Assembly (NCBI GenBank): GCA_002368155.1
Contig: AP018180.1
Coordinates: forward strand, 7,434,561 to 7,498,560
Origin: Nostoc carneum NIES-2107
GTDB taxonomy: Bacteria; Cyanobacteriota; Cyanobacteriia; Cyanobacteriales; Nostocaceae
Reading direction: 5' to 3'
DNA: 64,000 bases
Shown: piece after piece, positions 19,265-44,655 of the stretch
Layout: each line of letters begins with the position of its first letter
How positions within the stretch are numbered: position 1 is the first letter of the stretch
The notes under the pieces: generated by a model
What the model was told of the DNA's origin: nothing
Databases searched by the model: none
The model's input: the letters and a program-made list of their open reading frames with translations, nothing else
Position numbers and translations under genes: made by a program

Positions 19265-19303
19265 TTTTTATTAAGTTTCCTGTGTGCTAAAAGATGAGAA
19301 GAA

Positions 19304-19660
19304 TTAACCCAGAGTGATACTGGTGGGATAGTATGCGGTGCGGATAACTTTTGTTCTGTAAGTTTTACCAGTGAGAGTGGCACGCGCTTGAGGGGCTTTG
19401 TCTGCACTAACAATTAAGGTGGCAGTCTTGCGCTTTGTGCCATCAATATATGAAACTTTTATCTTGCGGCATAAACCTTCAGCAATTGCTCGACCAACTG
19501 TAGTTGAGGGGACTCCCGCCGGAGCATCACCAGTAACTTTAGTGACCCCTAATGAAGTGCCAATTCCTTCATAGACATCGGGTAGTACAAGCAATACTGC
19601 ATTAGTCCCGGAACCAACTACATGAGGCGCATTTTCAACACCACGAACTCTAGAAGCCAT
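19304..19660 (-). CDS. Unknown structural-like protein, paralogue of the 18899-19264 product
   Basis: This 118-residue soluble protein has a disordered-looking N-terminus and a beta-rich C-terminal half with basic patches (RKIKVSYIDGTKRKTATL, TGKTYRTKVIRTAYYPTSIT). It is separated from the gene upstream by 126 bp that contain the hairpin GGAAACC-TATA-GGTTTCC (19734-19751). It may therefore have its own promoter or be expressed at a different level, as expected for a major subunit. That is inference. Confidence 0.6.
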   Translation of the reverse strand: MASRVRGVENAPHVVGSGTNAVLLVLPDVYEGIGTSLGVTKVTGDAPAGVPSTTVGRAIAEGLCRKIKVSYIDGTKRKTATLIVSADKAPQARATLTGKTYRTKVIRTAYYPTSITLG

Positions 19661-19786
19661 AAATTAAATTCAATTTTTTTACAACAATTGACTAATTAAT
19701 AGCTAACACGGGTTTAATGGTGTTCCGGGAGTTGGAAACCTATAGGTTTCCCTATGTCCTGGAATGTCGAATCTTTTTTACGTATT

Positions 19787-20629
19787 TTACGTAATTAGGG
19801 CTGTATTTCTATAAGTAGTATCTATCAGAAAAATTGGGGGTGCTGTACCGCCAAAAGACACATAAGCATACCTGAATCTTAAATTGGCAACTGGTCGATA
19901 TGCAGTTTGCTTGTATTGCTTATTTAAGATGGTGTCAGTTTGGCTAATAACTTGAGTTGTGCTGTCTTTTTCTGGGGTGTTGGCATTAATTTTATTAAGG
20001 TCAAATGGTCTATCTATAACGTTGCATAATTTTTGATATAAAGTGATTCCCTCTTGCTTGGAATTAACCAACCAATAATTACCACGTGGAAAACCATTAA
20101 CAGGGTCAGTGTAACTTACAGAAATTTTGCCAGCAGTGTAAACAATACCTTTATTTGCTGATACAAATTGAGCTTTAATTTCATGAGATAAATCTAATAA
20201 ATTAGCTTTAGTAATTGCTGGTAGTATCTCACCGGATTTTGATGCATAGCGAGTTAATCGGCATGATTTTTCATGGTCTAAGCGTTTGCCATTAGGCGGT
20301 ACAGCTTGCGAATCTTGGGAAAAATATAGAAATAGTTGGGGATGTCCAGCTACAGGCTGAATAATATCTAAATCGCTACCATAAAATATTGATAAGTTTT
20401 TACGACTGTAGCCAATGACATCAAAAAACAATGATGTTCTTAAGTTCCAAGTAGCAATATTATCATCATCTTTCAGCCTGCAAGCTAGTTTTAAGGAAGC
20501 ACGAACGTTGCTTAAATCACCATTACCTTGAACATCATTAAAAAACTTATCAACTCGCTTGTTGTATTCAAGCATATAAGTTTGTTGCAGATGTTCCCAA
20601 CTATCAAAGTTTGCGGGTAATTCTGTCAT
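19787..20629 (-). CDS. Unknown 280-residue protein of the element block
   Basis: The N-terminal third is helical (LQQTYMLEYNKRVDKFFND), and the rest appears alpha/beta with GFPRGNYWLVNSKQEG and AYVSFGGTAPPIFL motifs. It has no signal peptide or membrane helix. The start lies 2 bp after the stop of the 820-residue protein gene, so the two are coupled. No family is recognised. Confidence 0.6.
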   Translation of the reverse strand: MTELPANFDSWEHLQQTYMLEYNKRVDKFFNDVQGNGDLSNVRASLKLACRLKDDDNIATWNLRTSLFFDVIGYSRKNLSIFYGSDLDIIQPVAGHPQLFLYFSQDSQAVPPNGKRLDHEKSCRLTRYASKSGEILPAITKANLLDLSHEIKAQFVSANKGIVYTAGKISVSYTDPVNGFPRGNYWLVNSKQEGITLYQKLCNVIDRPFDLNKINANTPEKDSTTQVISQTDTILNKQYKQTAYRPVANLRFRYAYVSFGGTAPPIFLIDTTYRNTALIT

Positions 20630-20631
20630 AG

Positions 20632-23094
20632 TTAGTCATCCGCATCAAATAAATCTGTAATGTCAAAAGCCGGGACATAAGAAGCAATCTTTGCTGCATC
20701 TCTTTCAGTTTTAACTTTGGCTGCTTCTCCCACATCTAAGCCATCTTTAGTATCAGGTTCTTGTTTAACTGCTTTAACAAATTCTGTGGCTGAATTATTT
20801 AATTCAGTAACAGCGTTGACCGCATCAACAGGAATTTGAGCAACCATTGCAACGGTGTTTGCGCCTTCTTGCAACTGTTGGAGTTTGGTCATCCATTTAT
20901 TATCAAAGCTTGGTTGTGGATTCATCCATGAATAGGCTTTTTCTCCCACTACACCCCAAATCCTCAGAGCATTACCAATTTTCCCTGTGTAACTACCAAT
21001 AACTTCTAGAGCATTGGTAATGACACTATTTACATTCATCAAATTATTTAAAACGTTGGTTGTAGCTTGATAAATCCTATTAGCTTTCTGCCAAGCTGCA
21101 TTTATAGATTGATAATTTTCCTCACCTACAATACCTTTTACTAAATTCTCAACAGTGGAATTGATAATTTGCCCAATATCAATATTGCTTCCTGTATCAT
21201 CTTTTAACCCAATCAAACCAAGAATATTACTTAGGGCACTTCCTAAAGTCGTTGCAATATCATTTGAAAGTTGAAAGGCATTATGTACAGTGGTAGCGAA
21301 AATCATCATGTTGAGGAGTCGGTCAAGGTGCAACCATTTTGAGAAGCGGTCAAGCTTGCCACTGATACCACCGGGAACCTGATCGCCTAGTTTGTTGTTG
21401 ATCACGCCAAGTAATGCTAAGTCAGCCGTGTTTAAGCCAGCGTTGACCGCATCTAAAACAGAGTTGGCGTTGTTGTTGGCGTTGTTTTTGATGTTGCCCA
21501 CGGCATCATTAAGACTCCTGCCAGCACAGCCGCCGTTGAGACTTCTACAAATTGCGGTTCCCGTGGCCTGCTCGATTTGTCCGGTCGTGGGTAAGTCCGG
21601 CTTAATTGTTTTGGCTGTGAGCGCTGGGATAAGTCCCAACTTGGCAGAAATATCATCTAGTTTGGGTAAAGCAGCATCGTTCACTTTCTTTTGCTCTTTG
21701 ATATCTTTTTCTAATTGAGGTATTTTTTGACTAAGATTGCCAGTTTGAATTTTCAAACTATTAATCTCAGATGGTGAAGGTAAAGATTGCTTGGTTTTAT
21801 CTAAGTCAGTTCTTAGCTTCTCAAGTTCTTTGGTTTGTTGTCCCAAGTCAGCTTTAATTTCTGTTTTGAGCTTCTCAAGTTGCTGGGCAGTTTGCGCCGA
21901 TGATGTCGTGGTATTAGAAGATATTGTGACGCTTGTAGATTTAAGAATTTCTGCTTGGGCTGCTCTAATATCTTCATTCCATTTAGCAGCGCCAGCTTCA
22001 AAAGATAAACTGTAAGTATCTTTTAGGCTTTTAGTAACGCCCTCATAACTAGTGACAGTTACCCCACCAATATCTTTAATTTCTTTGCCTTGAGCATCAA
22101 TTTTAGGCTGAATATCTTTTTTGAGGATATCTTTAATTTCTGCTATCTTTCCATCAACATATTTGATAGTAGTACCTACTATTTCGTCAGGCTTGATTTT
22201 AGCAAGCTCTTTTTGAATGTTAATGATAGTGGGAGGAATATTATCTACTTTGTTTGATAAAGATTCATTTTTTTTGATAGCTTCATTAACAGTAGTGGTG
22301 ACCTTGACAATCTCAGCTTTTAAATTGGTAATTGCAGTAGTGCCAGTATTAGAGACTTGAGATTTTAAGGTATCTAGTTGGGTTTTAATAGTTACAATTT
22401 GATTATCAATTCTAGTTCTAATATCAGCTATCTTGGCTTCTACTATTTCTCTACCTTTTCTGGTTTCATACAGTGCATCATTAGCTTGTTTTTTGGCTTC
22501 AACTATTTTACCTTCTAATATCTTTCTTCCGGATCTAACTTCGTAAAGTGCATTATTGGCGTTCTCTTTAATTTTTGTATTATTGCGGTTGAGTTCACCA
22601 ACTTGGGAGTTAATACGACTGACATCTTTATTATTAATATCAAGTCGCTTATTTGTATTATCAATACGAGTTTTTAGTAATTGCAGTAAAGAAAGATTTT
22701 TTGATAAATCAGTTGCCATTCTATCAAAACGCACCTCATTAGCTGCTTGCACAAGTTCATTGAGCTTAAGCATAAATGTTGCTATCCCCAATGAGATTGC
22801 TAAAGCATACAAAGCTCCCATGACACGACCAGACCCCGCCGCTTTTTGTGTTTGGGTTCCGCCTGGTACTTTTTTTAAAAAAGTATCCCAAAGGGTTTTA
22901 GTTTCTTTGGCACTTTTTTTTAACAGTTTCATGCGTTTGGCTGCTGCCCTAGCACCACCCCTACTCATGAATTGAGAAGTGGCACGACTAGCGCGTTTAG
23001 CTTCCAGCAACATTTTTTGAGGGTTGCCGTTCATATACCTAGTAGCTTTGTAAGCTCTTAAGGCACTTGGCGATATTTGCTGAAATACAGTCAT
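20632..23094 (-). CDS. Large coiled-coil membrane protein (tape-measure- or scaffold-like)
   Basis: This 820-residue protein is the largest in the element. It has a basic N-terminal region (1-85, many Arg/Lys), one transmembrane helix (about 91-109), and a very long coiled coil (about 125-490) with repeated units such as NALYEVRSGRKILEGKI and DALYETRKGREIVEAKI. A region with CRSLNGGC follows, then a hydrophobic helical C-terminal half. The length of coiled coil is typical of tape-measure, scaffold or spanning proteins. Its start overlaps the stop of the next gene upstream by 1 bp. The identity is open. Confidence 0.65.
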   Translation of the reverse strand: MTVFQQISPSALRAYKATRYMNGNPQKMLLEAKRASRATSQFMSRGGARAAAKRMKLLKKSAKETKTLWDTFLKKVPGGTQTQKAAGSGRVMGALYALAISLGIATFMLKLNELVQAANEVRFDRMATDLSKNLSLLQLLKTRIDNTNKRLDINNKDVSRINSQVGELNRNNTKIKENANNALYEVRSGRKILEGKIVEAKKQANDALYETRKGREIVEAKIADIRTRIDNQIVTIKTQLDTLKSQVSNTGTTAITNLKAEIVKVTTTVNEAIKKNESLSNKVDNIPPTIINIQKELAKIKPDEIVGTTIKYVDGKIAEIKDILKKDIQPKIDAQGKEIKDIGGVTVTSYEGVTKSLKDTYSLSFEAGAAKWNEDIRAAQAEILKSTSVTISSNTTTSSAQTAQQLEKLKTEIKADLGQQTKELEKLRTDLDKTKQSLPSPSEINSLKIQTGNLSQKIPQLEKDIKEQKKVNDAALPKLDDISAKLGLIPALTAKTIKPDLPTTGQIEQATGTAICRSLNGGCAGRSLNDAVGNIKNNANNNANSVLDAVNAGLNTADLALLGVINNKLGDQVPGGISGKLDRFSKWLHLDRLLNMMIFATTVHNAFQLSNDIATTLGSALSNILGLIGLKDDTGSNIDIGQIINSTVENLVKGIVGEENYQSINAAWQKANRIYQATTNVLNNLMNVNSVITNALEVIGSYTGKIGNALRIWGVVGEKAYSWMNPQPSFDNKWMTKLQQLQEGANTVAMVAQIPVDAVNAVTELNNSATEFVKAVKQEPDTKDGLDVGEAAKVKTERDAAKIASYVPAFDITDLFDADD

Positions 23095-23348
23095 TATTCC
23101 TCTATAAAAGCTTGAATAATTGATTGGAAAATATTGCGGTTATTACTAGCAGTTTTATTGTGTTCTCCGACAGCTTCGGTTAAGTGACCAACATCATCAA
23201 TAAGACTTTGAATAATTCCACCTAAATCTAAAATATCTTTTTCAGCCTTGGCTAATCTCTCGTTGATTTTGGCTAACTTATCAACTTTATTTTCTAACTC
23301 TTGAATTCTTCTATATAGCTTTAAGACCTCATCATCTGTTTGCGCCAT
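23094..23348 (-). CDS. Short coiled-coil protein
   Basis: The 84-residue protein is almost entirely heptad-like (VLKLYRRIQELENKVDKLA, INERLAKAEKDILDL). It overlaps the upstream gene by 17 bp and the large coiled-coil gene by 1 bp. It could be a partner or chaperone of the 820-residue protein (inference from position and coil). Confidence 0.6.
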   Translation of the reverse strand: MAQTDDEVLKLYRRIQELENKVDKLAKINERLAKAEKDILDLGGIIQSLIDDVGHLTEAVGEHNKTASNNRNIFQSIIQAFIEE

Positions 23349-23913
23349 CGAGCTTATCTCCTACTCTTCTTAATCTGCTATCGATGGCTTCACAATCAAG
23401 ACAGTAATAGCCTGGATATGTAGCTTTATTTACTCGCGTTTCGTGGGGAAGACAACCATCGCATTTAACAACATAGGCTGATGTATCGTATACCTCCCAC
23501 CCATAAAAAGAAGTGGCAGTGTATGCACATATCATTTTATTAGCGCTTAGTTCTACTTCGTAATTGTATTTTCTAACAAGATAGGTAGCGTATTCCTCAC
23601 TATGATATTCATCAAAAAATACAGTATATATAAGAATATCATCACTCTGATATCCTCCTTTAAAATATCTCCAGCCGCCCTCAGAAAAATAATATAAATT
23701 CCTATCTCTTACATCGCCATACCAATTACCAGGAATAACATTTACTAGTTGCCGGATATTCTCCCATTGATTCTTGAGATATACCTTTTTTGATGAATTG
23801 TATACATCTACTTTAACAGGAGGGTCATCAAAAACTGCTGTTTTACTGCCGTTGATGGTTTCAACAGTAATACTCGCTTTGGAGTTGTTTGTGCTACAAA
23901 ATTGCTTTGTCAT
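23332..23913 (-). CDS. Unknown protein with C-terminal zinc-ribbon-like cysteines
   Basis: The 193-residue protein has an aromatic-rich beta-like body (NWYGDVRDRNLYYFSEGGW) and ends with two CxxC pairs (CDGC and CLDC about 20 residues apart), a likely structural zinc site. Its ATG overlaps the stop of the upstream gene by 4 bp (ATGA type). No family is recognised. Confidence 0.6.
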   Translation of the reverse strand: MTKQFCSTNNSKASITVETINGSKTAVFDDPPVKVDVYNSSKKVYLKNQWENIRQLVNVIPGNWYGDVRDRNLYYFSEGGWRYFKGGYQSDDILIYTVFFDEYHSEEYATYLVRKYNYEVELSANKMICAYTATSFYGWEVYDTSAYVVKCDGCLPHETRVNKATYPGYYCLDCEAIDSRLRRVGDKLDGANR

Positions 23914-24608
23914 TCTAGCTCTGTTTTTGTAATGACAATTGCTGCATACTTCGTATCATTAATAATTTTTATCCCCCATAGTTCAGCCTTCATTGTTTTA
24001 GAGAACATAAAAGCACCTAAAGCATTGAATATGATTGCAACTAGGATATTCTGTGGTTTACTGGTATCTGATAGAAATAAATCGGAAGTTTTAATTCTGA
24101 TTTCGTTGGCATCCTGTGAGTAATTTAGCCCTAATAATTCAGCTAAGTTATCAATTAATCCAACAGGCTTAAAAGATAAATATCTTAAATTAAATGCTTG
24201 TGATGCACTCTCAGAATAATTTGACTCATACTCCAACCACTCATTAAAACCTACAAAGTATTGAATAGTTGGTACTGTGAACACATCTATTAAGTTGATA
24301 GGTGCTAAGCTATCAAGACTTTGATAGGTGATTGATTGATTAAAGCCGACTCCAATAGGAGCAAAAGGTAGTGTTAAACCACCGAATATTGCTGAAGCAA
24401 TACCAGCGCTATAGCTATTGAAAGTAAGGCTTGGTGATATCTGAAATGCGACTAACGGACTACCAAAACTGATGGAGAGGCTGCTTGTAAAACCACTCTG
24501 AACAGGCAAATAAAATGAATAGAAAGCAAGAGAAGTATTAATACTTCTACTCATTCCAGCCGGATAGGAATTAAAGCTAATGGTTGGTGTAATTCCTATA
24601 TCTGGCAT
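23910..24608 (-). CDS. Unknown beta-repeat protein with internal duplication
   Basis: The 232-residue protein contains two similar halves in its first 100 residues (PTISFNSYPAGMSRSINTSL and SLTFNSYSAGIASAIFGGL), both ending in a Ser/Gly-rich strand. The C-terminal half is more hydrophobic (ILVAIIFNALGAFMFSKTM). The pattern fits a beta-sandwich or fibre-like protein with a membrane-proximal end, but I recognise no family. Confidence 0.6.
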   Translation of the reverse strand: MPDIGITPTISFNSYPAGMSRSINTSLAFYSFYLPVQSGFTSSLSISFGSPLVAFQISPSLTFNSYSAGIASAIFGGLTLPFAPIGVGFNQSITYQSLDSLAPINLIDVFTVPTIQYFVGFNEWLEYESNYSESASQAFNLRYLSFKPVGLIDNLAELLGLNYSQDANEIRIKTSDLFLSDTSKPQNILVAIIFNALGAFMFSKTMKAELWGIKIINDTKYAAIVITKTELE

Positions 24609-24609
24609 A

Positions 24610-25365
24610 TTATTTTAAAAATATGCTTGAGTAAGTGGAACCACCGTTATAAACTTTAATCCAGTCTCCCACTGTTGCAAACAAACCTAGCCCGTTACCC
24701 GCACCAAAAGCAATATCATCCGACGTAATACCTAATACTGATTTGGCGTTGCCATAGACTATCAATCTGGGAATGATATCGTTTTTGTTGTAGTGATTCG
24801 TTAATGGGATATTGCAGGTTAAAACATCCCAAACTGTCGTTCCTAAAAGAGATGCACTAGAGCCAACGCTTCTTAATGTTGGCGGGTTCTGGAAAGCACC
24901 AAATTCAAGGAAAGCGCAATAAAAATTTTCATCAACATTATTAAGGGTAGCTGGTCTTACCCACCCCAGAATGTGAGACGTTAGATTCTGGTAGACCACG
25001 AGAAAGTCAAACTCACCACTATTGTTTCTGAATGTTTTCATGCTAACTGGTGAGGTATTTACAAATGTGATACCAATTCCAGTACTACCGGAATTAGTAC
25101 CAACGTGAGTACTCGCATTCCAGCCAGTATGAAGTGTTTGAGAAACAACCAAGCCACTGGTGACAGATATTTGAAAGTAAACATTGTCATAAGTTTTTCC
25201 CAGTCCCAAAGATTTTTGAAAGACTAGGTTTCTAGTTGTTGACACTGTGTAGTCGTCAATTGCCGTATACCCCAATGTACTCACCCAAGCAGCTTTGATT
25301 GCATCAGCAAGAGAAGTTTGGGTGACTGGAGAAACATCGCTTAAAGCTGTAACTGTGCTTGTCAT
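24610..25365 (-). CDS. Unknown 251-residue protein of the element block
   Basis: The frame is open further upstream, but ATG 25365 lies 4 bp after the stop of the previous gene and starts a plausible N-terminus (MTSTVTALSDVSPVTQTSL). The earlier start would overlap that gene by 86 bp. The body is beta-rich with Gly/Ser/Thr (HTGWNASTHVGTNSGSTG). Adhesin, fibre or virion-surface roles are possible; no family is recognised. Confidence 0.6.
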   Translation of the reverse strand: MTSTVTALSDVSPVTQTSLADAIKAAWVSTLGYTAIDDYTVSTTRNLVFQKSLGLGKTYDNVYFQISVTSGLVVSQTLHTGWNASTHVGTNSGSTGIGITFVNTSPVSMKTFRNNSGEFDFLVVYQNLTSHILGWVRPATLNNVDENFYCAFLEFGAFQNPPTLRSVGSSASLLGTTVWDVLTCNIPLTNHYNKNDIIPRLIVYGNAKSVLGITSDDIAFGAGNGLGLFATVGDWIKVYNGGSTYSSIFLK

Positions 25366-25369
25366 TTGA

Positions 25370-25699
25370 TTAATAATCCATAGGATTAGTTGTGCTTGCG
25401 GGTTCCTCTTTGTAAAGCTCAACCGTGTAAGAGGTAACGCGATAGCGAATTGCATTTTGGGTTAATAGACTTTCACTCGGTTCGCTGATCACCACAGAGA
25501 CATCAGAACTTGCAGTTCTTGATGTCTCGTTGAGAACAGTTGAACCTTGAAGCAGAAATGCTACGAAAAGTGATTCAGCATTATTTGTTGATGAGGCGAT
25601 TAGTCCCACACCAGTTAAACCTGATTTAGGAATGACAACTTCATCAGCATCTTGAGTTGTGCCTGTTCCAAAAACTTGAGCTAAGGTTGGCTCCGCCAT
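25370..25699 (-). CDS. Unknown 109-residue protein, first gene of the element block
   Basis: This Thr/Ser-rich protein has alternating hydrophobic residues (LFVAFLLQGSTVLNETS, YRVTSYTVELYKEEP), which suggests beta structure. It opens the eleven-gene minus-strand block. The 217 bp between it and the divergent tyrosine recombinase gene hold two strong palindromes and presumably the promoters of both units. Confidence 0.6.
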   Translation of the reverse strand: MAEPTLAQVFGTGTTQDADEVVIPKSGLTGVGLIASSTNNAESLFVAFLLQGSTVLNETSRTASSDVSVVISEPSESLLTQNAIRYRVTSYTVELYKEEPASTTNPMDY

Positions 25700-25759
25700 A
25701 AAACTGGATTTTTTATTGAAGTGAATAAATCCGTTCTAAAGCCCAATTGAAAAATAGTA

Positions 25760-25791
25760 AATCTTCCACTTTTATGTAGAAGTGGAAGATT
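25760..25791. promoter_or_regulatory. Perfect 12-bp-arm palindrome in the divergent promoter region
   Basis: The arms AATCTTCCACTT and AAGTGGAAGATT enclose an 8-base loop. It lies between two divergent genes, so it does not terminate a coding transcript. It could be an operator, a recombination site or a single-strand hairpin signal. Confidence 0.6.
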
Positions 25792-25861
25792 CACGGATGG
25801 CGCGTAACTATTGCCAGTATTAGGATTGAGCAAATATTTACTAATAGTACTTATCTACAAA

Positions 25862-25898
25862 ATTCCGCTTTTACCACTTTTTCAGGTAAAAGCGGAAT
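25862..25898. promoter_or_regulatory. Perfect 14-bp-arm palindrome in the divergent promoter region
   Basis: The arms ATTCCGCTTTTACC and GGTAAAAGCGGAAT enclose a 9-base loop and end 19 bp before the tyrosine recombinase ATG. Together with the palindrome at 25760 it forms a pair of similar size about 70 bp apart. Autoregulation by the recombinase or binding of an element regulator is plausible. Confidence 0.6.
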
Positions 25899-25916
25899 AT
25901 CAAAAACAATGCTTAT

Positions 25917-26498
25917 ATGCCTAAAAATAACAGAAGTGGAAAAGCTGCGGTTATCTCCGATAGTGATTTTGTAAAAATCCGTAAACAAGTCCGGACGGAA
26001 AAATATAAATTACTTTTGGATTTAGCCTGGTACACCGGGGAAAGGTGGGGGGCACTGATTCAGCTAAAGGTGAGTGATGTTTATGACGAGAAAGGCCGCC
26101 CCAAAGATACGCTCGTTTTTCAGGGAATCATTAGGAAACATCGACCGGACGGGACAGCTGACACGATAGAAATTCCCGTTCATGAAAATTTAAAAGATTC
26201 GCTTTCTCGCTTCTGTCCGGGAGAGTCGATTTGGTTATTTCCTTCGCGGTGTGGTACTAAGCCGATTACTTGGCGCAATGCCTATGACATCTTGAAGCGG
26301 GCAACTGACCGGGCCGGAATGGGGGTGAAGGGCATCTCAACACATACTACCCGCCGGAGTTTGGTGAATCGGCTGCGAAAAAACGGGACTGCTAAATCTG
26401 TGATTCGCAAGATTACCGGACATCGGGACGAGAAAGGGCTTGACCCTTACATAGATATTGACATCGATGAAGTGAGGGGAGCAATAGCAACTTTATGA
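25917..26498 (+). CDS. Short tyrosine recombinase (catalytic domain only)
   Basis: The 193-residue protein carries the full catalytic set: Arg in TGERWGALIQL, HxxR in HTTRRSLVNRL, His in ITGHRDEKG and the nucleophile Tyr in DPYIDID. The usual N-terminal SAM-like core-binding domain is missing, as in FimB-type invertases and some short integrases. It lies mid-element, 7 kb from either end, not beside an attachment site. Resolution of dimers, inversion or replication control therefore seems more likely than integration. ATG 25917 is the only reasonable start. Confidence 0.85.
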   Translation: MPKNNRSGKAAVISDSDFVKIRKQVRTEKYKLLLDLAWYTGERWGALIQLKVSDVYDEKGRPKDTLVFQGIIRKHRPDGTADTIEIPVHENLKDSLSRFCPGESIWLFPSRCGTKPITWRNAYDILKRATDRAGMGVKGISTHTTRRSLVNRLRKNGTAKSVIRKITGHRDEKGLDPYIDIDIDEVRGAIATL

Positions 26499-26656
26499 AT
26501 CCAGTCTTTTTACAAATTGAAACTTTCTATCAACGCCTGCAAGCTGGGGATTTTGACAACCCCTTAAGCCTGGCTCAAGAACTTGAGAAACTGGCGGATC
26601 TGGCTTGGAATGAGATTGACGAGTTATATCAGCCATCGCTTAGGATTGAGCCTTAA
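26495..26656 (+). CDS. 53-residue acidic helical protein coupled to the recombinase
   Basis: The ATG overlaps the recombinase stop codon (ATGA). The product is acidic and helical (LSLAQELEKLADLAWNEIDEL) and ends in IEP. The tight coupling suggests a partner of the recombinase, for example a directionality or accessory factor, but no family is recognised. Confidence 0.5.
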   Translation: MNPVFLQIETFYQRLQAGDFDNPLSLAQELEKLADLAWNEIDELYQPSLRIEP

Positions 26657-26719
26657 CTTATTGTTGATTGTTATGTACGCGTACTAACTAGCGCGATCGC
26701 AATTCGAGTTGCACCTTAC

Positions 26720-27013
26720 TCAAGAATTTTTGCGATCGCGTTTTTTATGGGCATTGGGCATTGGGCATTGGGCATGGGGGATAGGGAAAAAGGTGTACCC
26801 CGTAATCCAAATTGCTGGGTCGATGTTTGTGATTGGCAATTTTTTAAGAGCAAGCTTCGCTTCTTCAAGCTTAATTAGCGCTTCCTGCAGCTCGTCTCGT
26901 GCTTGTTGAGCCATAATTATGGCTTGCCAACGCTGCTGCCGTGCTATTTCAATGATAATTAGCGCTTCCTGCCTTTGCTGGAGTGCTTCCTCTAAAAACT
27001 TTGATTCATCCAT
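26720..27013 (-). CDS. Possible coiled-coil protein with repeat-derived C-terminus
   Basis: The first 60 residues form a convincing Ala/Gln/Glu-rich coiled coil (RQQRWQAIIMAQQARDELQ). The C-terminal 25 residues are translated from a GGGCATT tandem repeat on the opposite strand (HAQCPMPNAH), so the natural stop was probably displaced by repeat insertion. Coding is likely for the N-terminal part only. Confidence 0.4.
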   Translation of the reverse strand: MDESKFLEEALQQRQEALIIIEIARQQRWQAIIMAQQARDELQEALIKLEEAKLALKKLPITNIDPAIWITGYTFFPIPHAQCPMPNAHKKRDRKNS

Positions 27014-27143
27014 TTTTAGTTATTTAACCAAAGCCTATTCAATTATTTAAATTAAAAAATTTAATCTATCTTGCTGTAGAACTTAATATTTCAAATTATT
27101 GTGATTATTGCTACATTCAAATGTTCTTCTACAGTCATGCACA

Positions 27144-27662
27144 TTATTGATTACTCCAACTTTTGATTAACTGCTTAATCTCAGTTGGTGTTTGATCGTC
27201 TGCGATCGCACTCTCCACTTGAGACTTTCTACTTTTTGCGATCGCACTTTCAATATTGCCGCCGGGAATATGTACATGGTGAATTTTCCGGCCGGACATC
27301 CACAGGTAGCGGTAATAGTAATGTTCTTTGCCGTAGCGGGTGACTGGGTACTTTTCAATCCAGTGAGACTGTTCTGGAGCAGATTTAGTTGTGTTAGTTG
27401 TTGCTTGCTCCAGAACACTAAAATGAGGGTTTGAGCGTTCTGGGGTATCGCTTGTTACTTGCTCCAGAACAGTCATACCCTGAACTTGGGAAACTAACTC
27501 TGGGTATCTTCTCTCCCATTGATTCCACGCTGTTTCATACTCAGCAATGGTTGGGTAATCATCCGGTTCTGGTGGTTCCGCATCCCAAGCTGGATCGTAT
27601 TGGGGACTGGGGACTGGGGATTGGGTGAACTGTTGCAAGTCAAATAGAGTTAGCTGGTTCAT
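27144..27662 (-). CDS. Unknown element protein with a C-terminal basic aromatic domain
   Basis: The 172-residue protein has a Pro/Asp/Glu-rich N-terminal half and a C-terminal segment, YYYRYLWMSGRKIHHVHIPG, that looks like a small beta-hairpin nucleic-acid-binding module. I recognise no named family. It is coupled to the following gene (their ends overlap by 4 bp) and belongs to the minus-strand maintenance genes. Confidence 0.55.
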   Translation of the reverse strand: MNQLTLFDLQQFTQSPVPSPQYDPAWDAEPPEPDDYPTIAEYETAWNQWERRYPELVSQVQGMTVLEQVTSDTPERSNPHFSVLEQATTNTTKSAPEQSHWIEKYPVTRYGKEHYYYRYLWMSGRKIHHVHIPGGNIESAIAKSRKSQVESAIADDQTPTEIKQLIKSWSNQ

Positions 27663-27859
27663 GACTCACCATCCCGCCGCCTAAAGGGGACTACCTGGTG
27701 AGAGACTTGCTCAGATAATTCCTTTAATGCAGCTGACCAAGCCAGGGCAAATCCTACTGGCATTTCCTCAAAATCAGCTTCATTAATGAAACGCCGACGA
27801 ATCCAGTTTTTAAAAATCTCAATCTGCTGATGGTCGAATAAAAATTGTGAATCTGTCAT
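27659..27859 (-). CDS. Small unknown protein of the maintenance cluster
   Basis: The 66-residue protein is helical (QIEIFKNWIRRRFINEADF) with a basic tail (VVPFRRRDGES). Its stop overlaps the start of the next gene (ATGA type), which supports translation. It may be a small DNA-binding or regulatory protein; no family is recognised. Confidence 0.5.
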   Translation of the reverse strand: MTDSQFLFDHQQIEIFKNWIRRRFINEADFEEMPVGFALAWSAALKELSEQVSHQVVPFRRRDGES

Positions 27860-27921
27860 AATTTGATTTCCTTGATATAGTTGCGCCGCAATTTGCGGTT
27901 ATTTTTTTATACGTACAGTTA

Positions 27922-28599
27922 TCAACTGTTAGGAAATAAATCATCCCAATCAGTAGAGTTCCCATACATTTGAAGTAAAACACTGTAATTACGTGGGTGT
28001 TCCCAATAACGTTGACGCAAACAATCACGTATCCAACCTTCGGGATTGGGGATTTTTTCAAAACCACCACGCAAGTTAAACATGATTAAAGCTAATTTAA
28101 TTTCGTTGGTAGGACGATGTAATACTTCGGTTACGTTGTCGTCATAATAAATACCGTTATCTTCGAGCAACTGCCTATTATCACAATGCTGCTGCTGTAT
28201 ATTACTCCCGTCAGCACAACTGTCATTTGAGGGGGGTAAATTGTAACTAGAGTTATGGTTTTGTAAGTTTTTTTTCTTAGGTGGATTTAACCATTCCAGT
28301 GGTCTAACTAATAACTTAAAAACTTTCCAACTGTACTGTTTAACTACTTGCACTACACGATGGTTTAGCAGTAGTTCAAACATCTGCTTGAGGTAATTAT
28401 GCGAATATCCTTTACCTCTTGATTTGGCTACTGTGGCGTTAAATTCTGATAAGTCTGGCTCTATCTCTGCTGATATTTCACCTTGCCTCATGAGCCACTG
28501 CCAAAGTGATTTGGCAGCAGGAGGAATATGATTTTGATAGCAGAATGCTTCGTGTTCTTCTGTCCAAGGAAGTGGTTTTTTGTAGCGATTTTCTGTCAT
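27922..28599 (-). CDS. Winged-helix, replication-initiator-like protein
   Basis: The 225-residue protein begins with a helical segment that looks like a winged helix (PPAAKSLWQWLMRQGEISAE; YSHNYLKQMFELLLNHRVVQVV). A polar linker follows, then a conserved C-terminal block (NPEGWIRDCLRQRYWE) reminiscent of plasmid or phage replication and DnaD-like proteins. With iteron-like repeats 0.8 kb upstream and an RHH gene beside it, a role in starting replication of the excised element is plausible but not proven. Confidence 0.5.
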   Translation of the reverse strand: MTENRYKKPLPWTEEHEAFCYQNHIPPAAKSLWQWLMRQGEISAEIEPDLSEFNATVAKSRGKGYSHNYLKQMFELLLNHRVVQVVKQYSWKVFKLLVRPLEWLNPPKKKNLQNHNSSYNLPPSNDSCADGSNIQQQHCDNRQLLEDNGIYYDDNVTEVLHRPTNEIKLALIMFNLRGGFEKIPNPEGWIRDCLRQRYWEHPRNYSVLLQMYGNSTDWDDLFPNS

Positions 28600-28749
28600 A
28601 ATATTGATAGGAATTTTTCGTTTTTAGCTTCCTGGTAGCTCTAACTACTAGGAGGCTTTCAAGTTTTTAAGTATTAAAAATCAGGCTATTAGCTGTTAGT
28701 TATTCGCGGCGATCGCACTTTTGAAGTGAGGCACGATCACATTAAAAAT

Positions 28750-28773
28750 CCGTCCTCACCAATGGCGGGACGG
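28750..28773 (-). terminator. Terminator of the RHH gene (minus strand)
   Basis: Read on the minus strand, CCGTCC and GGACGG form a 6-bp stem followed by ATTTTTA. It starts 2 bp after the stop of the RHH/coiled-coil frame at 28776. Confidence 0.7.
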
Positions 28774-28775
28774 TT

Positions 28776-29170
28776 TTATTGCTGGTCTGGGATATTTTTC
28801 TCAGACATCAATTTGTAAATTTGTGCCTCAAGCTCTTGTATGGCTTTTTTAAAGTCGCTTTCACTTTCTTTGCTTTCGTCAAGTCTAGTGATCAGACGCT
28901 GCTGGTGCGATTTGACATAAGAAAGGTGCTTCTCTTCAAGTAACTTGACGGCTTCTAGTATTTTCCCAAGATCTGAACTTCTGGAGTAGCTAGGCTTATG
29001 CCCAGTTCCCCCTCGGCTAGTCCCCTGATCATCTGAGATGTGTCTTTGTACCCCAGAGACTTGGCTTTGTTTAGTAGAGCTTCCCTTTGTTCCAGAGAAA
29101 GCCGTACTGACAGCCTTGCCTCTTGTTCCGGTAGTATTTTTGGTCTTCCGGGCTTTTGTGGCGTTGTCAT
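28776..29170 (-). CDS. Ribbon-helix-helix DNA-binding protein with coiled-coil extension in the -1 frame
   Basis: From ATG 29170 the zero frame gives a 71-residue protein with a typical RHH domain (ARLSVRLSLEQREALLNKA, GYKDTSQMIRGLAEGEL) that ends at a stop at 28955. The -1 frame continues into a good coiled coil (ILEAVKLLEEKHLSYVKSH ... AIQELEAQIYKLM) to 28776. The slippery heptamer G GGA AAA (28967-28961) lies in the correct frame just two codons before the stop. A -1 shift would give a 131-residue RHH-coil protein. The long -1 frame open from 29186 has a low-complexity N-terminus and looks like a shadow of the RHH frame. RHH proteins of this size usually act in partition or repression. Confidence 0.65.
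28961..28967 (-). other. Canonical -1 frameshift slippery site
   Basis: On the minus strand the heptamer GGGAAAA reads as G GGA AAA in the RHH frame (X XXY YYZ). After a -1 slip it reads GGG AAA and then enters the coiled-coil frame. The zero-frame stop follows after one more codon. No stimulatory stem was verified. Confidence 0.6.
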
Positions 29171-29398
29171 CGCTGTTATTACTCATAACCTTTTTTCTAT
29201 TTTAATTTTGTCTGCACAAAAAGTTTTGTGTTCACGCTTGACTGATACTTTTGGGTGTACGATTATGTTAACAGAGTTTTGTGAAAACAAAATTATTTTA
29301 GCTCCCCCCTCACCCATGCCACTGTGCCTGTGAGGGCCAATTCAGGAGCAAGCACCCGCGCACTGCCAAAGAGCCAGCGCGGAAACAACCTCAAATGA

Positions 29399-29470
29399 TC
29401 AGAGCTGACTGCGTAATCATCGGAGTTGACTGTGCAATGCTCGCAGTTAACTGTGTAATGCTCGGAGTTC
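29399..29470. repeat. 21-bp iteron-like tandem repeats
   Basis: Three tandem 21-bp copies of TCGGAGTTGACTGTGTAATGC type (29399-29419, 29420-29440, 29441-29461) are followed by a partial fourth. The unit length and directness fit replication iterons or a centromere-like site bound by an RHH protein; the RHH gene starts 230 bp away. Confidence 0.7.
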
Positions 29471-29591
29471 ATAAAAGTCATAAGCGCCACAGCTACACCC
29501 GGCGCTGCAAACCTTGCTGTCTCGCAATGGAGGTATAAATTTAGACGTTAATCTCTTCTCTAGCCAACGTAGTATGTACTTAACCATGATT

Positions 29592-29612
29592 CGCCAGCAT
29601 TCTTTGCTGGCG
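29592..29612. other. Strong hairpin in the 29187-29727 non-coding interval
   Basis: CGCCAGCA and TGCTGGCG form an 8-bp stem with a 5-base loop, followed by CTTTCCTCC. The interval from 29187 to 29727 has no gene that I support. It holds the iterons, this hairpin and the terminator at 29670, which together resemble an origin or small-RNA region. Confidence 0.6.
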
Positions 29613-29669
29613 CTTTCCTCCCCCTGGAGGCGCTGATTTTCTGTCAGAACAACATATATCGGAAAAACA

Positions 29670-29706
29670 CCAGCGTCAGTTTGGTGAAGCTTGACGCTGG
29701 CATTTT
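29670..29706 (+). terminator. Rho-independent terminator
   Basis: CCAGCGTCA and TGACGCTGG form a 9-bp stem followed by CATTTTTT on the plus strand. No plus-strand gene lies immediately upstream, so it may end a non-coding transcript from the 29500-29670 region. Confidence 0.7.
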
Positions 29707-29727
29707 TTGAAAATGGGAAATTAAATT

Positions 29728-29913
29728 ATGACTTACCGCGCCGATTTAAGACCGTGGGCTATTTTCAGATGTCGTATCACTGGTAATCTCTGCGTTGCTC
29801 GTTTTCGCTCGCGTGGCGATGCCTATGCTTATATGAGCATTCTGCGCGCCAATAATCCCGGCGCAATTTATGAAGTGGTTTTTGATAAGCAACCGGCTGA
29901 GATTCAAAACTAG
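29728..29913 (+). CDS. Small unknown protein (61 residues)
   Basis: It starts shortly after the terminator, with GGGAAATTAA before the ATG. The protein is compact and aromatic (AIFRCRITGNLCVARFRSRG, AYAYMSILRANNPGAIYEV), with an alpha/beta look and no membrane helix. It resembles the kind of short conserved protein found on cyanobacterial plasmids, but I cannot name it. Confidence 0.5.
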   Translation: MTYRADLRPWAIFRCRITGNLCVARFRSRGDAYAYMSILRANNPGAIYEVVFDKQPAEIQN

Positions 29914-29997
29914 AAATTTTGCGATCGCACAGCTTTAGAGGAGGAGTGCGATCGCTTGTGAGTCGTCATCTACTTATGTAAAAAATATCACAATGTT

Positions 29998-30360
29998 ATG
30001 CAAGTTAAAACCATCAGTTACAAACGGGTTTTAAACCTGGGTAATTACGAAAATAAGCACCTAGAACTACTGGCTGAAGTTCATGAGGGAGACAATCTTG
30101 ACGCTGAAATCTCTCACCTGATGGAAACAGTTGAGCGCAAAATCCGAGAACACGAAGAACAAAAAATTGAAGCTGAACTAGAAAACCTCAGACAACACAG
30201 AAGTGACCTTAGAAAGCAGATAAGGGACTTAAAACAAGAGTTAGGACAACTACAACAAGGGGCAATCGCTAATCCAGCAGATCTGGAACCCAGCATAGAC
30301 GATATCCCTTTTGAGGCTGGGGATACTGCTCAATCAAGCGGTATCCCTGACGGATTTTAG
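29998..30360 (+). CDS. Unknown protein with beta N-terminus and coiled coil
   Basis: Residues 1-40 alternate as beta strands (VKTISYKRVLNLGNYENKHL). Residues 45-95 form a charged coiled coil (ETVERKIREHEEQKIEAEL), and the C-terminal tail is acidic and proline-containing. The acidic tail after a possible nucleic-acid-binding start recalls accessory replication proteins, but this is speculation. Confidence 0.55.
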   Translation: MQVKTISYKRVLNLGNYENKHLELLAEVHEGDNLDAEISHLMETVERKIREHEEQKIEAELENLRQHRSDLRKQIRDLKQELGQLQQGAIANPADLEPSIDDIPFEAGDTAQSSGIPDGF

Positions 30361-30439
30361 TCAAAGTTTTGAAGTGCGATCGCGCTACTTGGAATGGAAC
30401 GCGATCGCAATAATTTGGAACCTACAGCCACGTAGATTT

Positions 30440-30694
30440 ATGCAAATCATATCAGTTCCTACCGTGTTCACTTGCAAAACCCCGGGTTCTGGTTGGCTGA
30501 ACTTAGCCCAAGTTCGCCAGCTGCAACATTCACCATCAGGTAACTCTTTCAAAGATGACTTAGTTGTGATCACCTGGCAAAACGGCGATAGCCAACCATT
30601 TACAGGTGAAGATGCTTTGGCCATACTCCAAGCTTGGGATGAAGCACAACAGCGTTGTAATTGTCTCCAATCGAAAAATCATGAATCAAGATGA
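30440..30694 (+). CDS. Small unknown protein (84 residues)
   Basis: ATG 30440 is chosen over the open upstream frame because the conserved-looking part (LNLAQVRQLQHSP, DLVVITWQNGDSQPFTGED) starts there and the upstream part overlaps the previous gene. It is probably a small beta-barrel-like protein. Its 3' end overlaps the next gene by 14 bp, which suggests co-translation. Confidence 0.5.
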   Translation: MQIISVPTVFTCKTPGSGWLNLAQVRQLQHSPSGNSFKDDLVVITWQNGDSQPFTGEDALAILQAWDEAQQRCNCLQSKNHESR

Positions 30695-31343
30695 ACTATT
30701 AGCCAAGTTTGGCGACGATTTTAAACAGCTATCAAATGAGCCAATTATTCAGCTAAGTATTTCACCGTTGATGGCTTGGCAGATAATTTCTCAACTGCAA
30801 TTAGCGCTAAGACATCCCGAAAACTCCGGAGCATCAAGTAAGTCTACGAGACATTTTGTAGATACACTAGCCTCACAAATGCCCATGACAGACTCACTCA
30901 AAGAGTTATTTAACATGGGATGGAACCCGGATTACGATCAGCCACAGACTAAAAAACCAACTACTGAAGTTCATAACGCTGTAGCCATCTACGGAGTAAA
31001 TGAAGATGGCACATTAGCAAATACTCCAATTGCAGAATTTGCCCGCCCTCAAGATTGGGGAGATAAAGAGCGCTGGCATTATGAATTTTTTAGGCTTGAA
31101 TGGCACACAGACAAAGAACTTTTTATCAATAATTGTCACTGCTGGACTGACATAAAAAACCCTGAAACTGGTTATGCTCAACTGTTCGCGCCAGGCATTT
31201 GCATGATTTTAATTCCAGGTAACAAGCCTCAATTATGCGGACGTGATTATTTAGATGAGGATGATTTTTGGAGTGAAGAATGGGGAGAAATGCCACCTTA
31301 TTATTTAGGTGACGATGAAGATGAGGAAGATATTTATTTATGA
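30681..31343 (+). CDS. Unknown acidic protein (220 residues)
   Basis: The start is set at ATG 30681, overlapping the previous gene by 14 bp. The N-terminal 70 residues are helical, and the central part is rich in Trp/Tyr/Phe (HYEFFRLEWHTDKELFINN). The last 30 residues are strongly acidic (YLGDDEDEEDIYL). No family is recognised. It overlaps the next start (ATGA). Confidence 0.55.
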   Translation: MNQDELLAKFGDDFKQLSNEPIIQLSISPLMAWQIISQLQLALRHPENSGASSKSTRHFVDTLASQMPMTDSLKELFNMGWNPDYDQPQTKKPTTEVHNAVAIYGVNEDGTLANTPIAEFARPQDWGDKERWHYEFFRLEWHTDKELFINNCHCWTDIKNPETGYAQLFAPGICMILIPGNKPQLCGRDYLDEDDFWSEEWGEMPPYYLGDDEDEEDIYL

Positions 31344-31555
31344 GTGAAGAAAGCTTACCACAACCAGATCCAAGTTGGGACTATTACACTTACTGGAATG
31401 ATTTAGAACGTATCAAAGACACAATTAATACAGCTTTAAAATTGATGGCACAGCATGAGGAATCTAATACTGAGGCTAATAAAGATATCAAACAATTATT
31501 AAACAAAGCCTCAGAAAAATTGATAGAAGTCATCACCCAGATTGAATCCGCCTGA
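31340..31555 (+). CDS. Small coiled-coil protein upstream of the bridge-RNA candidate
   Basis: The 71-residue protein is mostly one helix (LERIKDTINTALKLMAQHE, DIKQLLNKASEKLIEVITQ). Its ATG overlaps the stop of the preceding gene. It is the last protein gene before the non-coding RNA region. Confidence 0.5.
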   Translation: MSEESLPQPDPSWDYYTYWNDLERIKDTINTALKLMAQHEESNTEANKDIKQLLNKASEKLIEVITQIESA

Positions 31556-31572
31556 TGAGCCAATTGGCTATA

Positions 31573-31813
31573 GGCTACCTGACACAGTAGCCGAAACTCT
31601 GGCGATTGCCAGAGTCGCGGATTGTGTCCAAAGCAGTTCGCACCATTACACATAGGAAGTGCGGCGTTAGGAGAGAATAGCGCTCTATTGTGAGGCGTTT
31701 TAATGTTCAAGCGCAGCCCCCAAGTGTTGATGGTTCCCCAGTTCGTTTAGGAGTGAATCGCGCCCCTGCTTTGATGTGGGGCGTTAGGGTGATTCTTGCG
31801 CTTTCATACTGGG
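31573..31813 (+). ncRNA. Candidate bridge RNA of the IS110-type recombinase, with four guides
   Basis: There is no ORF here; the interval is full of stems. Two 5' hairpins occur first (GGCTAC/GTAGCC, 31573-31592; ACTCTGGC/GCCAGAGT, 31596-31615). Four units follow, each built as [GG/TT]CGTT, a 9-10 base guide, two bases, then GCGC. Guides: 31669-31677 AGGAGAGAA (left target; matches 18187-18195 in 8 of 9); 31700-31708 TTAATGTTC (right target; complementary to 33429-33437, 9 of 9); 31748-31757 TAGGAGTGAA (left donor; matches 33422-33431 in 8 of 10); 31786-31795 AGGGTGATTC (right donor; complementary to 18193-18202 in 7 of 10). All end in the core GAA or TTC. An apical stem CGCCCC/GGGGCG (31761-31766, 31778-31783) and an outer stem CCCAGT/ACTGGG (31737-31742, 31808-31813) form the donor loop. 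The order and polarity are those known for IS621-like bridge RNAs. The exact 5' and 3' ends are not known. Confidence 0.85.
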
Positions 31814-31875
31814 TTTTAAACACAAATTAAACAGTGTTGCCTCACTGTTATCACACCCTTACTGTTAGCTGAACC

Positions 31876-33246
31876 ATGACAATTGAATTAAAAACCCTCG
31901 GAATTGATGTTTCTAAATCATCAGTCACAGTTCATATTTTATCATCCTATCCAAAAGGAGGTTTAAAAGGTTATTGGGATAAAACCAGGAATAAATCATC
32001 AAGTTTTTATCCAGTTTTTTACAGCAATCCTGACCCAAGAAAAAAACAAAAATCAGCATTTGATTTTGCTGATTTTATCAAGGAACATCAACCAGACGTT
32101 GCTATTTTAGAGCCAACTGGCAATCATTATTCTCGTCTTTGGGCGAAAATACTTGATAGCTTAAGTATCAAAATTCTCTGGGTAGGTCACATTGAATTGC
32201 GGCGTTACCGTGGGGGTAAAAATCTACCCAATAAATCAGATGCAGCTGACGCGCTAGCTATGGCTGCTTACCCATTGGATGTAGAACACCATACCGAAAA
32301 CGGAGAACTTAACCAGCGTTACTTTCTCATGCATCGCCCCCAAGCAATCAACCAAATCAGGGAACTCTGCCAGCAGCTTGAACACCTTAACCGTGTTCAG
32401 TCTCCGATCATCAACTATGCTCGTCAACTCCTGGCTTGGCAGTTTCCCGAAGTGGCTCATACTAAATCCCAAAGTACCAAGCTTGGGAATCTCCCGCCGT
32501 TGTGGGGTTGGTTAGCCGGGAGACAATTTGAGGTGTCCGCGCAGTCCTGGAAAGCAATGGAGAATAAATACATTGCATCCGCCGCTAAGCATTACGGATT
32601 GACCATTGACCCAATTCTTAGACAACACGCCGATTGGCTGTGTGATATCGAATTAACCGAGCAGCGCCTTGAAAGCGAACTTCAAGAACTCTTAGCTTTG
32701 GAGTGTTTCAAAACTTACAACCAGATTTTTTCTAATTTTGGTTTTGGTCTTCGAGTCAAAGCCCGGTTACTCAGTCGCATCTACCCATTTGAGGCATTTT
32801 TGCACAATGGTAAACCCTTGATTGAGTATGAGGTAAGAGAAGTCAAACGGGTAGAGAAAGAACGCCGTGATGGTCAAACTGTGGTGAAACGCTTACCAGG
32901 TGACATCAAACGCACCAAACGCAACCGCAGCCGGGATGCTTTTAAGATGCGGCTGGGTATGGGTACAGTCCTGGAGCAGTCCGGAGATGAATTACTGGAA
33001 AAGCCTAGCGGTTCAGCATTGTGTCGAATGTCATTTTGGCAATATGTACTTTGCCAGGTCGAAACTGGGAAGCTACCAGAAAATGATATCAGCACTACCT
33101 TGCTAGATGCCAAAGATAACCTCAAAGGTATTACTGACAATTCTGGTAAACAGATGCTCAATGGTAAACACTTGCAAGGTAAGTTGATGGCTAAGGTTGC
33201 AAATCTACTTTTCAATCAGTTAGTTGAGGCGATCGCTAACAATTGA
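31876..33246 (+). CDS. DEDD recombinase (IS110/Piv family) of the element
   Basis: The 456-residue protein has a RuvC-like N-terminal DEDD domain: Asp11 in LGIDVSKSS, Glu79 in AILEPTGNHY, and Asp122/Asp125 in SDAADALAMA. A helical linker leads to the C-terminal transposase_20 domain (FGFGLRVKARLLSRIYPF, then VLEQSGDELL with a candidate catalytic serine at 368). It is longer than most IS110 transposases (about 330-420 residues) because of insertions near residues 25-60 and 315-350. It ends 0.2 kb from the element's right junction, directly downstream of the bridge-RNA candidate. IS110-type enzymes cut and join DNA using a bridge RNA that pairs with target and donor. It is therefore the probable integrase of the whole element. 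Confidence 0.88.
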   Translation: MTIELKTLGIDVSKSSVTVHILSSYPKGGLKGYWDKTRNKSSSFYPVFYSNPDPRKKQKSAFDFADFIKEHQPDVAILEPTGNHYSRLWAKILDSLSIKILWVGHIELRRYRGGKNLPNKSDAADALAMAAYPLDVEHHTENGELNQRYFLMHRPQAINQIRELCQQLEHLNRVQSPIINYARQLLAWQFPEVAHTKSQSTKLGNLPPLWGWLAGRQFEVSAQSWKAMENKYIASAAKHYGLTIDPILRQHADWLCDIELTEQRLESELQELLALECFKTYNQIFSNFGFGLRVKARLLSRIYPFEAFLHNGKPLIEYEVREVKRVEKERRDGQTVVKRLPGDIKRTKRNRSRDAFKMRLGMGTVLEQSGDELLEKPSGSALCRMSFWQYVLCQVETGKLPENDISTTLLDAKDNLKGITDNSGKQMLNGKHLQGKLMAKVANLLFNQLVEAIANN

Positions 33247-33261
33247 CCCATCCCTGATGCT

Positions 33262-33288
33262 CAACCCCCAAGTTAAATTTGGGGGTTG
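33262..33288 (+). terminator. Terminator after the DEDD recombinase
   Basis: A perfect 10-bp stem CAACCCCCAA/TTGGGGGTTG with a 7-base loop begins 15 bp after the recombinase stop. It would insulate the chromosome from transcription out of the element's right end. Confidence 0.75.
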
Positions 33289-33428
33289 TTAAGTTTCCAA
33301 AGGCATAGGCTGAACTTGCACCAGCATTCGATCAGGTTACTACCCTGGAAGGTCGAGCATGAAGCACAAACCTGCAATTACTTTTCTGCCATTATGCCAA
33401 GCTCTAGTATATTGCAGGTTATTAGAGT

Positions 33429-33711
33429 GAACATTAATATTGTTGCGAGCGTTTCCCATGTCTGTGAAAATGGCAATATCTACCTCATCAGAAATGCTAT
33501 CTTGTTCATTTCTCGGTAAGATTCCCAGCGTTAAACCATTCGCAGATTTTGCACCCTTATTTGCTGCATCCATCACCCCTGCATTTCTCCCGCCAGTAAG
33601 CAAAATCCATTTTTCCTGAGCAATGAGGCTACCTAATTGATAGGCATTTTGCAAATCCCTTGCTTTCGCCTTCTCTCCCGGCCCCATTACTCCTACAATA
33701 ATTTTTCTCAT
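33429..33711 (-). pseudogene. 5' half of the split SLOG/LOG-family (TIGR00725-like) gene
   Basis: From ATG 33711 the frame encodes RKIIVGVMGPGEKA, then LGSLIAQEKWILLTGGRNAG and FTDMGNARNNINV: the N-terminal Rossmann half of a TIGR00725-type protein. Beyond the core at 33429 the frame runs into element sequence (out to 33340) and loses family similarity. The other half is at 17987-18195. The intact upstream part still has its own start and probably promoter, so a 96-residue or longer truncated product could be made from this half. Confidence 0.88.
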
Positions 33712-44584: not shown

Positions 44585-44655
44585 GATAAAGAAAGGGTTA
44601 AGGGTCAAGAGCCAAAGGTCAACAGTTAAGGGTCAAAATTCAAGAGTTATTTCTC

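Follow-up and report, generated by a model that had tools for sequence, protein, structure and literature searches.

The question raised by this locus is whether a putative guide RNA, encoded just upstream of a DEDD recombinase in Nostoc carneum NIES-2107, may direct the integration of the whole multigene element in which both lie. Bridge RNAs have so far been described for minimal insertion sequences, and a sequence-only reading of the locus had proposed that a bridge-RNA candidate with four guides serves an element of 15.2 kb. We followed this proposal through the whole stretch of DNA analysed, 64,000 nucleotides and hereafter called the window, and through homologous loci in related genomes.

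The element occupies positions 18193-33431 of the window, which makes 15,239 bp with both GAA cores counted. About 20 genes are packed into these 15.2 kb, and the whole interrupts an LDcluster4/SLOG gene at a GAA core. Its limits follow from alignment of the joined site in relatives' loci, and the ends match the guides described below: the left end, GAATCCCCAG, begins with the left core (18193-18195), and the right end, TTAGAGTGAA, finishes with the right core (33429-33431). The N-terminal part of the split gene lies to the right (33432-33711, minus strand), where the ORF 33340-33711 matches Pfam PF18306 (LDcluster4) with an E value of 3.3e-37, covering only positions 1-94 of the 151 in the profile. 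The remainder of the protein is encoded left of 18193, in the C-terminal fragment at 17987-18192 (minus strand); on joining the flanks the frame continues from the right fragment into the left one, and the joined frame encodes an LDcluster4/SLOG protein.

For the empty site, the left and right flanks were joined at one GAA and used as a query. The rejoined site was covered by 12 of the 15 relatives' loci, gapless in the 27 columns around the core, and the three loci that did not align over it (L021, L022 and L023) had been fetched for matches elsewhere. The core at this empty site is GAA in 10 of the 12 loci, GTA in L027 and GGA in L030. When positions 31500-33500 served as the query, six genomes of the same genus (G002-G007) matched only from 33419-33425 on, that is, over the right flank. 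An exact copy of the 13-nt joined target, GGAGAGAACATTA, is absent from the 9.36 Mb genome. With a shared core of just 3 nt, looking for the junctions as repeats in the window was of no use. Judged by these alignments, the insertion in the window is genuine: it is precise and it splits a host gene. Short-repeat arrays, made of CCCATTA-like units and their complement, are visible at 44642-44746 and at 17900-17976, the latter about 0.2 kb outside the left junction.

The DEDD recombinase gene (31876-33246, plus strand) encodes 456 aa and was placed in the IS110 family by NCBIfam, alignment and Foldseek. The NCBIfam model NF051857 (transpos_IS110_2), which names the protein only and is silent on RNA, guides and element size, was matched over its full length (E 6.3e-140, 466.7 bits vs a cut-off of 180). 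Pfam DEDD_Tnp_IS110 stayed below threshold for the window recombinase (24.9 bits, cut-off 29), PF01548 was found in 19 of 19 members at E values of up to 1 (best 2.4e-11), and Transposase_20 in 4 of 19. The residues D11, E79, D122, D125 and S369 are invariant in all 19 aligned recombinases, so that the RuvC-like domain with D-E-D-D residues that marks IS110 proteins is present, and S369 sits in an SGD motif. In IS621 a serine of the C-terminal transposase domain is catalytic, and S369 may be its counterpart. An AlphaFold model of the recombinase (pLDDT 86.5, pTM 0.70) was searched with Foldseek, and the first seven matches were six IS621 chains and one ISCro4 chain (best 8wt9, E 2.4e-9). Their TM-scores are 0.55-0.58 when normalised to the target and 0.41-0.43 when normalised to the query length; RuvC matches were also found. 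A profile search of PDB sequences with the recombinase gave no match. The recombinase is IS110-type, with a predicted IS621-like fold.

The 80 relatives of this protein kept of 92 confirmed in the named genome collection are cyanobacterial, judged by the titles of their records. Plasmids gave two distant recombinase relatives at 35-37% identity, and no relatives turned up in a phage collection or in IMG/VR, for which the queries were the recombinase profile and one cargo protein. A terminator-like hairpin lies 3' of the gene and inside the right end (33262-33288, plus strand); it comes from a consensus scan only, which returned 4 such sites vs 2.2 expected. Similar G-C-rich hairpins can also be seen before the right ends of some homologues.

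Upstream of the recombinase lies the predicted bridge RNA (31573-31813, plus strand), recognised by its fold energy and by a covarying fold in homologues. The sequence-only reading had described four units here, each consisting of CGTT, a guide, two bases and GCGC, and all four were found in place on the plus strand: left-target guide 1, AGGAGAGAA (31669-31677); right-target guide 2, TTAATGTTC (31700-31708); left-donor guide 3, TAGGAGTGAA (31748-31757); and right-donor guide 4, AGGGTGATTC (31786-31795). Its counts were reproduced as well. Guide 1 agrees with the left junction TGGAGAGAA (18187-18195) in 8 of 9 bases, the reverse complement of guide 2 stands without a mismatch at 33429-33437, or at 10 of 10 when the stretch is extended by a base to 33428-33437, and guides 3 and 4 match the right and left ends of the element in 8 of 10 and 7 of 10 bases, respectively. 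The order of left-target, right-target, left-donor and right-donor guides and their strand logic agree with those published for the IS621 bridge RNA (PMC11208160).

Guide 1 by itself is weak evidence, because 14 sites in the window lie within one mismatch of it, counting guide 1 itself, guide 3 and the left junction. The 8 of 9 count stands, and its one mismatch, at position -6, proved to be systematic and to fall outside the working guide: T occupies this position in 18 of 18 complete targets, which were retained for matching the guide at -5 to -1, and in no guide. The working left guide is therefore 5 nt plus the GAA core, in the window GGAGA + GAA. The fixed T (18187, facing guide base 31669) may contact the protein or end the pairing.

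The RNA segment folds at -94.1 kcal/mol, with z = -4.07 against 200 shuffles, and in this single-sequence fold some guide bases are paired. The consensus fold was built from an alignment of 35 sequences, with G050, whose 5' part was not recognised, excluded; it comprises 42 pairs, of which 14 are altered on both sides, and 1,432 of the 1,466 cells are standard. The idea that the guides lie in internal loops was borne out for the target guides, which the consensus fold places on opposite sides of an internal loop. The donor part is less clear, as the core bases GAATC and GATTC pair together and the loop is only partly open. No Rfam family reached its gathering score in 31400-33500, where only matches below it occurred, and a scan for a sigma-70-like promoter before the RNA found none, which says little for cyanobacteria. 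The expected features of a bridge RNA, namely a structured RNA with a target and a donor loop and with guides that match target and donor, are present at the level of sequence.

One reading that is compatible with all of this holds that the system is what it seems to be and that the copy in the window has become an immobile remnant. We consider this a possibility of some weight, if not the favoured one: the genome holds a single copy of RNA plus recombinase, and among the relatives some recombinase genes are broken or the left end is missing. It is opposed by a recombinase frame that is intact with all key residues, by four guides that still match and by the conserved fold of the RNA.

Bridge-RNA-guided integration, mobile or not in this copy, makes a prediction for other loci, in which each RNA should match its own insertion site. 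Homologues were collected by DNA and protein searches of relatives (196 genomes, and 217 genomes of the family). The close clade, with recombinases of about 455 aa, was studied at 39 loci including the window, and further places, mostly partial genes, were left out. In the DNA available, the RNA was recognised in 36 of these 39 loci, the exceptions being G001, G236 and G278d. In five of the 36 (G050, G278a, G259, G223 and G278c) the guides were assigned manually on the RNA sequence; for G050 the right flank was already known at that time, and its score is only 4 of 6. Terminal motifs were learned from guide-found ends in 13 loci, and afterwards ends were called by motif alone, the right-end motif being [CT]TAGA[GC]T or GTTACCCT before GAA and the left-end motif GAATCCCCA.

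A right end was called exactly once in 35 of the 36 loci. Between the right-target guide and its own flank, 5-6 of 6 positions agree in 26 of these 35 (mean over the 35: 4.8 of 6), compared with 9 of 1,190 cross pairings. At least one left end lies upstream in 21 loci, and in 18 of them the left-target guide matches it 5 of 5, compared with 2 of 420 cross pairings. Loci outside the motif learning gave 17 of 22 on the right (cross 4 of 462) and 11 of 12 on the left (cross 2 of 132). None of 20,000 permutations of the guides reached the observed total on either side, for the full set or for the loci outside the learning, a result that is not a strict probability since the loci share ancestry. 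As the earlier reading required, the guides of the homologues track their own insertion sites, on both sides.

Close relatives nevertheless carry unlike target guides. In 23 pairs whose recombinase genes share at least 85% identity, the identity amounts to 53% for the left-target and 34% for the right-target guides, to 100% for the donor guides and to 89% for the remaining RNA. Donor guides are frozen, and target guides diverge among close relatives. The left-donor guide follows the subtype of the right end, the three bases before the core (AGT, CCT or ACT) agreeing in 18 of 18, an agreement of limited weight in that the subtypes are inherited by clade.

Some loci deviate. The right guide scores below 5 of 6 in 9 of 35: six loci are at 4, G268 is at 3, G223, whose left guide is also without the GAA core, is at 1, and G265a, in which a left end directly follows the right end, is for that reason at 0. 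On the left side, 22 loci have a left-end motif or upstream DNA uncut by a contig end, and 4 of them are without a guide-matched left end. The left ends of G261 (2/5), G083a (2/5) and G083b (2/5 and 0/5) are mismatched, and G080 has no left-end motif in 37 kb. In the remaining 14 loci without a left-end candidate, the upstream DNA is cut by a contig end.

Complete elements could be delimited in 18 cases, with lengths of 11,360-17,218 bp and a mean of 13.9 kb, and no two of them share left plus right site sequence. Empty sites were found in related genomes for seven elements besides the one in the window (G004, G005, G064, G242, G255a, G260 and G268). All 14 alignments read for these seven virtual empty sites cross the junction, with no gap in 27 columns except for one query gap 12 columns before the core (G255a against L136), and the core reads GAA in 10 of the 14 and AAA or GGA in the other four. 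The empty site of G004 also occurs in the genome of the window itself (L127). Precise, sequence-specific insertion at a short core is thus documented by the empty sites of eight of the 18 complete elements, the window plus these seven.

Of 15 distant recombinase loci (about 45% or 40% identity), 14 were listed, and each of these 14 has at least one cargo gene match upstream; six or more matches, up to about 15 kb away, are found in 12. A left end with the GAATCCCCA motif and a 5/5 left-guide match is present in 3 of 8 distant loci checked and absent from the other 5, and two of the matched elements have estimated sizes of about 15.5 and 13.1 kb. The right ends of these loci were located by their guides and are therefore not independent evidence. 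In the matched locus L112 a second left end scores 0/5, and in the most distant clade (L119-L123) the guides were not resolved. Near the start of L112 and in G214 (L091, at 2012 and 2066), a further left-end motif lies about 55 bp inward of the first; that of L112 is preceded by GTTACCCT, the right-end motif of another subtype.

In Nostoc sp. CHAB 5715, one contig (G265a, L092; 7,016 bp) reads recombinase, right end, GAA and left end in this order. The coverage stated in its title is 35, vs 13-17 for three other gene-bearing contigs of that genome. By its sequence, the junction of right end, GAA and left end would fit a circle or a tandem insertion, which look alike.

The cargo of the window element forms two arms. 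The left arm (18219-25699, minus strand) encodes small conserved proteins and an 820-aa coiled-coil protein, and the right arm (27144-31343) contains the backbone clusters C1, C4 and C9 on the minus strand, C10 and C11 on the plus strand and a 245-aa ORF. A backbone gene for a short tyrosine recombinase of 193 aa (cluster C0; 25917-26498, plus strand) matches Pfam PF00589 (E 6e-13) and PHROG 216 (E 4e-28). Upstream of it a palindrome at 25757-25794, with 18-nt arms that are 89% complementary, is a candidate recombination site, and its region could be aligned in seven elements. These seven elements were annotated by ORFs of at least 70 aa, 14-23 in each; C0, C1 and C2 (the DEDD gene) occur in 7 of 7, C3 and C4 in 6 of 7, and the shared backbone clusters keep their order and orientation. 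As an observation apart, the palindrome could be a dif-like site for multimer resolution.

Beyond integrase and transposase, no function could be assigned convincingly to the cargo from PHROGs, PADLOC and NCBIfam. Only weak matches of the coiled-coil type or matches under the cut-off were seen, among them, for the coiled-coil proteins, those to a PHROG 'hemolysin' (0.02), NCBIfam ASRP (2.8e-7; 29.5 bits, cut-off 300) and PADLOC LmuB (0.0016), and for a 225-aa protein to PADLOC PDC-S02 (0.0083). The structure model of a 118-aa cargo protein was too poor for use (pLDDT 44.9). The large protein, a coiled coil in the window, has collagen repeats in 3 of the 5 relatives scanned, one of them below the Pfam cut-off. 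Two small left-arm proteins encoded at 18899-19660 are 97.5% and 99.2% identical to those of L122, where they stand beside a recombinase of a distant clade, which suggests module swapping between elements.

The conserved tyrosine recombinase offers another agent for the integration of the island, with the DEDD gene and the RNA as passengers or acting elsewhere. Its presence in the backbone of all seven elements and the adjoining palindromic site in the window speak for it. We nevertheless judge it very improbable: beyond the GAA core and T at -6, the 18 complete insertion sites have no fixed position, and no common attachment site set by a tyrosine integrase was found, whereas the bridge-RNA guides match each site. 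The palindrome also lies inside the element, with about 7.6 kb to each end.

Still less credence is due to a pair of stacked insertions, in which an IS110 element of about 2 kb would stand beside, or have been split later by, an unrelated island of 13 kb. The sequence GAATCCGCCT at 31545, just before the RNA, resembles the left-end motif, and the left end is where IS110-group elements reportedly have their RNA (PMC11208160). Against this, 18 complete elements of 11.4-17.2 kb have the left end with its guide match, synteny of the backbone holds across the seven elements compared, and the empty sites are without the whole island. In addition, no guide-matched GAATCCCCA occurs within 5 kb of the RNA in the available DNA of the loci. 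The short left end at 31545 was tried as a candidate and rejected, as its flank agrees with guide 1 in only 5 of 9 bases and, again, the empty sites are without the whole island. That the guide matches are chance, or an artefact of picking ends by guides, can practically be dismissed: guides are short, one-mismatch copies of guide 1 are common and the motifs were first learned from guide-found ends, yet the motifs hold in the loci outside that learning and the permutations never reach the observed result.

We therefore arrive with high confidence, on the strength of the sequence comparisons, at bridge-RNA-guided integration of whole multigene islands by the DEDD recombinase. The claim of the sequence-only reading that the RNA directs integration of the entire element appears well supported by guide tracking, the consensus fold and the IS621-like order of the guides. 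With the mechanism transferred from IS621, the recombinase and the RNA, both encoded at the right end of the island, would be expressed, and the DEDD protein would bind the bridge RNA. The donor loop (guides 3 and 4) would pair with the joined ends of an excised circle, in which the right end AGAGTGAA is joined to TCCCCAG across the order right end, GAA, left end, and the partner of the target loop (guides 1 and 2) would be the site GGAGA-GAA-CATTA in the chromosome. Strands would then be exchanged at the GAA core, and the whole island with its cargo would be inserted with no gain or loss except one extra copy of the core.

Several traits are shared with IS621 and the IS110 group as these are described in PMC11208160: a structured RNA 5' of the gene, a DEDD recombinase of predicted IS621 fold, the same order of four guides, a short shared core and sequence-specific insertion. 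Unlike the minimal elements of that account, the islands measure 11-17 kb and hold 14-23 ORFs of at least 70 aa in the seven compared. The recombinase is also longer, with 456 aa vs 305-319 residues in the IS621 chains, and the island core is GAA. Moreover, the RNA (31573) lies 13.4 kb from the left end (18193) and not in a terminal left end. The same source describes a circular form of IS621 that drives RNA expression, and IS1111 elements with the RNA in the right end; at 13.4 kb a promoter at the circle junction could not act locally, and an internal promoter would therefore be needed. In the published search for IS110 boundaries (PMC11208160), the gene was extended by 1,000 bp to either side, which would miss such islands. 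The seekRNA systems of IS1111 and IS110 elements likewise combine DEDD transposases with RNA-guided target choice, and they are described for insertion sequences (PMC11187229), unlike the islands.

An IS110 insertion sequence is a minimal element with essentially only its recombinase and with the bridge RNA inside a terminal non-coding left end, and the island has neither property. The protein belongs to IS110 and the RNA is bridge-RNA-like, while the element is a large cargo-bearing variant and not a minimal IS110 insertion sequence. The elements excised in heterocysts of Nostoc and Anabaena are large, split host genes and use tyrosine or serine recombinases. The islands resemble them as large cyanobacterial elements in a split host gene and differ in having a guide RNA, which to our knowledge those elements lack. 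In the open-licence literature, with preprints and most subscription journals outside its scope and the sources seen in part, we found no large cargo-bearing bridge-RNA element, which is a weak negative.

It is conceivable, though we put it forward tentatively, that these elements form a distinct class, the RNA-programmed multigene islands of cyanobacteria. The target half of their RNA would be rewritten between insertions, perhaps by dedicated retargeting, with the donor half frozen, and the tyrosine recombinase with its own palindromic site would resolve or rearrange copies. Such a class would be a natural proof that bridge recombinases move payloads of 11-17 kb. If bridge-RNA-guided integration of whole islands is true, it would be relevant to genome engineering, both for the size of payloads and for specificity. 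The divergent recombinase, the GAA core and some thirty natural guide-site pairs provide a data set for pairing rules, for example on the fixed T at -6 that is matched by no guide. Frozen donor guides beside drifting target guides make the acquisition of new targets by bridge RNAs testable, and in these cyanobacteria nature would already be moving islands of 11-17 kb to programmed sites by bridge RNA.
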